Shown in pieces: positions 12,019 through 13,407 of a stretch of 33,921 nucleotides of DNA. The stretch comes from a virus. Location: positions 1 to 33,921 of IMG/VR virus record IMGVR_UViG_3300042309_000244. One strand, written 5' to 3'. How positions within the stretch are numbered: position 1 is the stretch's first letter; each line of letters opens with the position of its first letter. The notes under the pieces are model-generated. The model was given only the letters and a program-made list of their open reading frames with translations, did not search any database and was not told where the DNA came from. The position numbers and the translations under genes were made by a program.

Positions 12019-12972
12019 GTGAGCCTCACTTACCTCTCCTGCTTCTCCGGCATCGGCGGCCTTGACCTCGGCTTCGACCGGGCCGGGATGACCTGCGTTG
12101 GCCAAGTCGAGATCGACAAGCGCGCCCGGCAGGTGCTGGCCCAGCACTGGCCCGACGTTCCCAAGCACGACGACATCACGACAGCAAAGGAGTGGGCCAG
12201 TGAGCGAGGCCTTGTGGGACGAGTTGACGTTGTGGCCGGAGGAGCCCCATGCCAGGACCTCTCCGTCGCGGGCAAGCGAGAGGGCTTTGAGGGCAGCCGA
12301 TCCGTTCTCGTCCTTGAGATGGTCGCCCTTGCAGCGCATGTCCAAGCTGACTGGATCGTCTACGAGAACGTGCCCGGACTTCTTAGCAGCAATCAGGGCC
12401 GCGATCTCGGAGTCCTCATCCTTGCACTGGCCGACGCAGGCTTCCCTTACGTCGAATGGAGAGTGCTTGACTCGCGCTACTTCGGAGTCGCCCAGCGTCG
12501 CCGTCGAGTGTTCCTTATCGCAGGTACTGCAGACCCACGCCGATCCCCGGTACTTCTTGAGCGCGAAGGCAGCCGAGGGGATTCTGCGCCGGTCAACGCG
12601 CCGGGGCCGCTCACTTCCACCAGAACTGCAGCAGGCCCTGGAGGAAGTCGCTGGAGCGGCGCCGCCAGCGGACCCGAACTAGCAGCGCCTTTGGCGTCAC
12701 TGACGGGCGGCGTCCGCACCAGTGACGTGGAGAACGCCACGTTTGTTGTCGAGAGAGAGAGAGAGAGAGAGAGAGAGAGAGTCGGCGGCTGGAGCGAGGG
12801 CAACGTGGTGACCGCCCTGACGGCCAAGTGGAGCAAGGGCTCAAGCGGCCCGGCCGGCGACGAGCATCACAACCTCGTCATCTCGCCATCACCGATGTCA
12901 TCGGGACTCTCTCGGGCGGGGCTCACCCCGGTGGACTCAACGGGCAAGACGCCTACACCGGGCAGTTGGTGA
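12019..12972 (+). pseudogene. DNA (cytosine-5) methyltransferase, N-terminal part; gene broken by frameshifts
   Basis: Transfers a methyl group from SAM to C5 of cytosine in DNA. Seen: motif I SCFSGIGGLDLGFDRAG (7-23), motif IV GGAPCQDLS with catalytic Cys78, motif VI ENVPG (Glu116) and motif VIII QRRRRVFLIA (~159-168). The C-terminal motifs IX-X lie in the next reading segment. Family-like sequence runs in frame 1 to about 12887, in frame 3 from about 12888 to 12984 (ITDVIGTLSGG, GLNGQDAYTGQLVIV), then back in frame 1. As written, frame 1 reads off-family residues and stops at 12970. A (GA)15 tract sits inside the gene. The GTG start has no clear ribosome site. Confidence 0.85.
12751..12781 (+). 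repeat. (GA)15 microsatellite inside the methyltransferase gene
   Basis: Fifteen uninterrupted GA units plus a final G, translated as alternating Glu-Arg (10 codons). It lies between the catalytic core and the C-terminal motifs, in the low-conservation linker. Gain or loss of one unit changes frame. A G9 homopolymer (13043-13051) lies 260 bp downstream in the same gene. Both are simple-repeat types known from contingency loci and are also prone to sequencing error. Confidence 0.95.
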
Positions 12973-12978
12973 TCGTCC

Positions 12979-13407
12979 ATGAATGACGCCTACACCAAGT
13001 CCCGCCGTGCGGCCAATGACCAGGACTACGAGACATGGAAGCGGGGGGGGGTGGCTCCAACCTTGAACGCCTTTGACAACGCCACTGAATCACGGGCCAC
13101 GGTTGTGAAGGTCGTCGGATTCAACTGGCAGAACGGCGGCGGTTACGGCAACGCCAATCCCGGTCTCGGAATTACGAACGAAGGGACGGGTCCGTTGTCT
13201 ACGTCACAGGTTCCAGCCGTTGCCGGAGAAGGCGTTGGCGTCCGACGCCTGACTCCAGTCGAGTGCGAACGCCTGCAGGGATTCCCTGACGGCTGGACCG
13301 ATGGTCAGTCGGACTCGGCTCGTTACCGCCAGCTCGGCAACGCGGTCACCGTGCCTGTGGCCGAATGGATTGGCCATCGACTGATAGAGGCGGCCTCCGA
13401 TGCCTAG
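12979..13407 (+). pseudogene. DNA (cytosine-5) methyltransferase, C-terminal part
   Basis: 142 aa open from an ATG at 12979, but the ATG is probably not a true start: the family sequence resumes at about DAYTKSRRA (12985). Contains GGVAPTLNAFDN, then RRLTPVECERLQGFPDGWTD and RYRQLGNAV, which are methyltransferase motifs IX and X, including the Asn-Ala-Val of motif X. This part contributes target recognition and SAM-site closure, so neither half alone should be active unless they assemble in trans. Correcting one missing base near 12887 and one extra base near 12984 would give one continuous enzyme of about 460 aa. The G9 tract is in frame here. Confidence 0.8.

Follow-up and report, generated by a model that had tools for sequence, protein, structure and literature searches.

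A split cytosine-5 (C5) DNA methyltransferase locus (Table 1) was analyzed in the window, the whole stretch of DNA under study, which is an IMG/VR-classed virus contig of 33.9 kb. The contig is the one record of this phage examined, as sequence only. Integrase, terminase, portal, and major head genes are present, and the source was therefore probably a temperate tailed phage. Annotated phage DNA nearest to the window gave only short matches (~68 to 76% identity). L159, a relative of the window, fell at low coverage into the bin of an actinomycete MAG, no more than a hint to the host.

Table 1. Features of the methyltransferase locus, in positions of the window
Feature	Position	Strand	Remarks
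Gene A, N-terminal C5-methyltransferase chain, motifs I-VIII	12019..12972	+	GTG start; 317 aa in present phase; PF00145, E 2.4e-43
(GA)15 tract, proposed frame selector	12751..12780	+	GA/AG, CT or CA tract at equivalent place in ten relatives
Recognition module X, frame 1, NVVTALTAKWSKGSSGPAGDEHHNLVI	12802..12882	+	In frame in present phase; 89% identical in L159
TGA closing third tract phase (OFF)	12809..12811	+	
Recognition module Y, frame 3, ITDVIGTLSGGAHPGGLNGQDAYTGQLVIV	12888..12977	+	In frame after loss of one tract unit; 93% identical in L159
TGA closing X phase	12970..12972	+	
Gene B, C-terminal chain with motifs IX-X and two recognition-type modules	12979..13407	+	ATG start; PF00145, E 3.3e-14
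TGA closing Y phase	12984..12986	+	3 nt past gene B start codon
Gene B module 1 (KSRRA..DYETW..TLNAFDN..RATVV)	12997..13107	+	Conserved in many relatives
G9 in gene B, proposed chain B ON/OFF switch	13043..13051	+	In frame here; L082, L084, L117 out of frame at tract
Gene B module 2 (GFNWQNGGGYG..GPLSTSQVPAVA)	13117..13224	+	Cassette also in gene A of L022; single-chain L019, L034, L035, L079
Motif IX (RRLTPVECERLQGFPD) to motif X (GNAV)	13243..13347	+	

The Pfam DNA_methylase family matched residues 5 to 172 of the upstream open reading frame (ORF) and residues 78 to 136 of the downstream ORF. The two ORFs aligned with residues 12 to 173 and 227 to 318 of M.HhaI, respectively. Motifs I, IV (PCQ), VI (ENV), VIII (QRRRR), IX, and X follow in order across the two (PF00145, TIGR00675). 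The ATG of gene B (12979) lies 7 nt after the X-frame stop and just upstream of the Y-frame stop (12984). In all 55 relatives that have the halves in separate ORFs, a start codon was found downstream of the last in-frame stop and ahead of the first module of gene B, and a small cysteine-rich ORF (CEETC.NCG.DIGPHHLC) is located between genes A and B in L082 (~3910 to 4050) and L023 (~3910 to 3975). Because the halves of M.HhaI match A and B separately, the start codon is present in 55/55 relatives, and a further ORF separates the halves in L082 and in L023, the locus is read here as two genes rather than one gene with two indels. An earlier sequence-only reading had proposed two compensating frameshifts. 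Its succession of frames 1, 3, and 1 was correct, but the single gene was rejected in favor of ORF A, a module in an alternative frame, and ORF B with its own start codon. The usual one-chain form of C5-methyltransferases is not found at this locus, which has two ORFs; exceptions such as M.AquI are known.

The (GA)15 tract, which is uninterrupted (15.5 copies counting the next G) and translated as Glu-Arg repeats, is the sole GA tract of at least 5 units in the window, and the G9 tract in gene B is the sole homopolymer run of at least 7. In shuffles of the window, 0.00 occurrences of a GA 24-mer containing at most 3 mismatches were expected, and a tract like this one arose in none of them. Both tracts (12751 to 12780 and 13043 to 13051), as well as the family-like coding that passes through frame 3 at ~12885 to 12986, had been noticed in the sequence-only reading and were confirmed. 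As in phase-variable loci, the GA repeat is in a coding region and its unit length is no multiple of three. IMG/VR and MAG assemblies give one tract length each, in which mixtures may be collapsed, and the count of GA units given for the window may not be exact.

Computation of the three tract phases in the window gave three different ends for chain A. At the present length the reading frame enters module X and stops at 12970; with one unit fewer it enters module Y and stops at 12984; with one unit more it stops at 12809. In the Y phase, the chain passes through ~35 to 40 residues translated from X out of frame before it reaches Y. The segment at ~12885 to 12986 was family-like in frame 3 only, with 82 to 84% identity to L002 and L082, and its frame-1 reading had no match in any relative. 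Both modules also occur in phage methyltransferases that are intact and single-chain, where they lie between motifs VIII and IX as ordinary cassettes read in frame: X in L003, L004, L006, L008, and L012, and Y in L108, L111, L118, L119, L125, L126, L128, and L129. Module Y additionally had weak matches in unannotated gut phages. C5 recognition domains contain a T-(I/L/V)-(T/A/S/V) core (PMC2413257). The X and Y cassettes carry a core of the T-(L/V)-(S/T) type, although X of the window itself has ALT instead. Exchangeable modules with such a core, placed in varying orders between motifs VIII and IX, are what characterizes multispecific phage C5-methyltransferases, and they were found here. By alignment, the position of the recognition region fits that of the target-recognition domain in the M.HhaI fold, but in the AlphaFold model of a single-chain relative, pLDDT was <50 in that region.

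The same order of tract, X, and Y was present in eleven loci (the window, L159, L002, L082, L359, L050, L023, L340, L314, L054, and L097). L169 is a possible twelfth case that was not counted, its second module having no checked homologue. In 11/11 loci the three tract phases were computed to lead to X, to Y, or to an early stop, with one phase reaching the contig end in L002 and L314. The Y frame runs without stops through the X DNA (27 to 40 codons) in every one of them, and the third frame stops at codon 1 to 32. The layout is kept even among phages with as little as 46% protein identity in the upstream half. The tracts consist of GA/AG, CT, or CA and are translated into Glu-Arg, Leu-Ser, or Thr-His repeats, and one and the same module pair follows CT in L002 and L082 but AG in L359, the gene A DNA being 77 to 79% identical. 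Because relatives with equal modules carry different dinucleotides, the conserved feature is the presence of a tract and not its sequence. The sequence-only reading had named the lack of a GA repeat in relatives, together with a fixed tract length, as a result that would speak against a switch; instead, GA, CT, or CA tracts occupy the equivalent place. In L097, a second tract, (GA)14, is located at 2340 to 2367 just before motifs IX-X, which lie in a third frame, so that two tracts stand in series.

All three states were found among the assemblies. The window, L159, L002, L082, L050, and L023 are in the X phase, L340 and L359 in the Y phase, and L054, L314, and L097 in the OFF phase. L340 and L314 have both modules in common but are in different phases, and the same holds for L359 compared with L082/L002. 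L159, an independent assembly 88% identical to the window, retains the frame 1/3/1 layout with a (GA)9 tract, six units apart from that of the window and hence equal in phase, and has no indel relative to the window over the 260 nt past the tract. No relative with post-tract DNA exactly identical to that of the window was found among viral contigs.

In order to evaluate selection on the two modules, the codon phase of substitutions was determined in four pairs of relatives, with L082 used in two of the pairs. In the X region, 41 of the 62 substitutions were at third positions of the X frame (P = 1.3e-7); in the Y region, 43/79 were at third positions of the Y frame (P = 9e-5). The phase of the substitutions switches at the X/Y boundary (Fisher P = 6e-10). 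This change of phase excludes error and decay, and the substitution pattern shows that X and Y are both maintained as protein, under purifying selection each in its own frame.

These findings probably reflect, and we hold this with good though not full confidence, a split, multispecific, phase-variable phage C5-methyltransferase in which the repeat selects the recognition domain. Gene A would supply the catalytic half (motifs I to VIII), and gene B two additional recognition-type modules together with motifs IX-X. Slippage of the (GA)n tract at replication, which we infer for the phage of the window, would let chain A end with X (the present state), with Y (one unit fewer), or with neither (early stop), and the G9 tract could switch chain B off. 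The two chains would have to assemble together, and X and Y would recognize different DNA targets. Since the X and Y stops are near the start of gene B and the OFF stop is 170 nt upstream, translational coupling may lower gene B expression in the OFF state. The phage population would then hold mixed methylation specificities, most simply directed against host restriction; counter-restriction is a likely purpose because of the analogy with multispecific phage methyltransferases. The phage-borne, phase-variable contingency locus that the sequence-only reading had offered first is supported. What that reading missed is that the frame changes belong to the switch, that the tract chooses between two recognition modules, and that the gene is split.

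Plain ON/OFF phase variation, in which just one tract phase yields a functional enzyme and the other module is left as a relic, is the alternative that survives best, but it appears improbable. Other methyltransferases are known to switch in this way, L275, which is also a phage C5-methyltransferase, resembles a simple case, and L285/L266 have one module after the tract. A relic is difficult to reconcile with the conservation of X and Y each in its own frame, with the existence of assemblies in the X phase as well as in the Y phase, and with the recurrence of the two-module layout in 11 loci.

Programmed ribosomal frameshifting could, in principle, fuse X and Y, and perhaps gene B, with the tract being incidental. 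In its favor, Y is in the -1 frame relative to X in 10/11 loci, but the shift in L054 is opposite, several assemblies are in phases other than X, and translation of gene B can begin at a start codon of its own. A programmed -1 frameshift was rejected because a slippery heptamer in the X phase was absent from 11/11 loci, and frameshifting is considered even less probable than simple switching.

That the locus is a decaying pseudogene with a GA expansion, as its broken frame relative to single-chain relatives might suggest, is highly improbable: the frame 1/3/1 arrangement recurs in L159 and the tract-X-Y layout in nine further loci, down to 46% identity of the upstream half, and, unless the codon-phase test is an artefact, the out-of-frame module is under frame-specific purifying selection. 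Sequencing or assembly error, for which a single metagenomic contig with error-prone repeats and two apparent frame changes gives some grounds, was rejected as the source of the frame changes by the independently assembled L159 with its equal layout and lack of indels, by nine further loci that follow an equal logic, and by the codon-phase test, and it deserves no more credence than decay. Both had been listed as options in the sequence-only reading.

A natural tract-length variant was found in a related phage C5-methyltransferase. L285 and L266, from different metagenomes, aligned over 5,823 bp without a substitution, and their sole difference was 4 nt, (GA)18 versus (GA)16. One length enters a recognition-type module and ends beside a gene with motifs IX-X, and the other stops at once. 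With one recognizable module past the tract, this pair represents switching and not a choice between X and Y. Two further pairs differ in apparently intergenic tracts ~2.2 kb upstream of the methyltransferase, (TC)26 at L022:373 versus (TC)23 at L150:2191 and (GA)32 at L030:1285 versus (GA)37 at L154:1119; in each pair the tract is the sole difference, over 4.2 and 7.6 kb, respectively. Methyltransferase-like phage genes with GA tracts in L275 (minus strand, 9802), L099, L106, and L107 are apparently simple ON/OFF cases.

G tracts were counted over 107 distinct methyltransferase intervals, a set that includes neither the window nor the GA-selected loci. In the recognition region (69.6 kb) there were 49 runs of at least G8, every one of them on the sense strand; C, A, and T gave no such runs. 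There were no such runs in 52 kb representing the preceding 500 bp of the methyltransferase genes and 5 sense-strand runs in 574 kb of flanks. The G9 tract of the window lies in the recognition region like the sense-strand G tracts of relatives. At the gene B codons of G9, L082, L084, and L117 (the latter belonging to the L002 contig) go out of frame by +1 exactly at the tract, which tract-free loci never do. Recognition modules of L016, L022, L028, L030, L087, and others, located between motifs VIII and IX, also contain tracts of G8 to G10, again confined to the sense strand. After the G10 tract of L016, one module has its natural end in the +1 frame and the present frame continues into another module, which suggests that G tracts may make a similar choice of modules. 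Modules also change position: the cassette FNWQNGGGYG belongs to gene B in the window and to gene A in L022. The L002 and L159 contigs both end at, or a few bases from, the gene B G tract, and the other end of L002 (L117) reads G10; mixed G-tract lengths that break assembly would explain these contig ends.

In the Bacillus phage SPR, phi3T, and H2-type enzymes, exchangeable recognition modules are located between motifs VIII and IX of a single chain, in one frame, and all are always present. The window shares with this type the several exchangeable modules between VIII and IX but not the single chain and single frame. The presence of multiple recognition modules in Bacillus phage C5-methyltransferases is attributed to Trautner et al. 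1996 in a later paper (PMC12707154). As described in part of the relevant report, M.AquI is a C5-methyltransferase of two polypeptides, the large chain with motifs I to VIII and part of the variable region and the small chain with the distal variable region and motifs IX-X (PMC3404938). Judged from its sequence alone, the window shows the same division into two chains; repeat-controlled choice of modules, proposed for the window, is not described in that part of the M.AquI report.

The closest parallel in mechanism is NgoAV, a Type I system of Neisseria gonorrhoeae in which the length of a poly-G tract in hsdS alters the methylated DNA sequence via a truncated or fused specificity protein (PMC9577141). 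As is proposed for the window, tract length changes the sequence that is methylated. However, NgoAV concerns a bacterial Type I specificity subunit (HsdS) with a G tract and truncation versus fusion, whereas the window has a phage C5 enzyme with exclusive modules in different frames. The window system works like NgoAV but is no member of that type, its gene being a C5-methyltransferase (PF00145) and not an HsdS subunit. M.MmyCI, a phase-variable Type III methyltransferase of Mycoplasma, contains AG repeats by which translation is terminated or not (PMC3498834). As in the window, a dinucleotide tract in the coding region sets the frame, but M.MmyCI is a bacterial Type III adenine enzyme with ON/OFF switching.

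Tract-length changes of specificity (NgoAV), splitting (M.AquI), and multiple modules (Bacillus phages) are therefore known separately, and their combination in phages was not found in the literature searched. Nor was a phage example of tract-selected recognition modules found there, in a search of partial coverage that is no proof of absence. We lean toward the view, with appreciable doubt, that the loci represent a distinct class of switch that is widespread in phages, in which a microsatellite acts as a frame selector between consecutive, mutually exclusive domains and gives three-state specificity (X, Y, and OFF), with the states multiplied by further tracts such as the second GA tract of L097 and the G tracts in many relatives. 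If this is true, phages diversify their methylated sequences by replication slippage, and one infecting clone could give rise to genomes protected against different restriction systems. Phase variation would extend from ON/OFF control to the choice of domains in overlapping frames. It would also explain the frameshifted look of such phage methyltransferase genes, which are likely annotated as broken.

Several other features were observed. A +1 reading frame overlaps gene A at 12098 to 12682 of the window (plus strand, frame 2) and is strongest at ~12510 to 12660, directly after motif VIII. This frame (SLSQVLQTHADPRYFLSAKAAEGILRR..LP..L..AL) was conserved in about 75 to 88 of the 107 loci, exceeding the conservation of gene A's own frame there, and is matched by PHROG 16143; it looks like an overlapping gene. 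Phage genes with an SGGKDSTVL... motif in L095, L096, L100, L101, L102, L104, and L105, which we take to resemble PAPS reductase, carry a GA tract (VERERERE) in L095, L096, L100 to L102, L104, and L105 alike; L101, with 10 GA units, reads through in frame, and L105, with 9 units, does not. A PAPS reductase-like gene (PHROG 424, with a weak SspD match) is located at 13893 to 14708 of the window, two genes downstream of the methyltransferase, and a glycosyltransferase-like gene at 28538 to 29722 directly follows the head genes.
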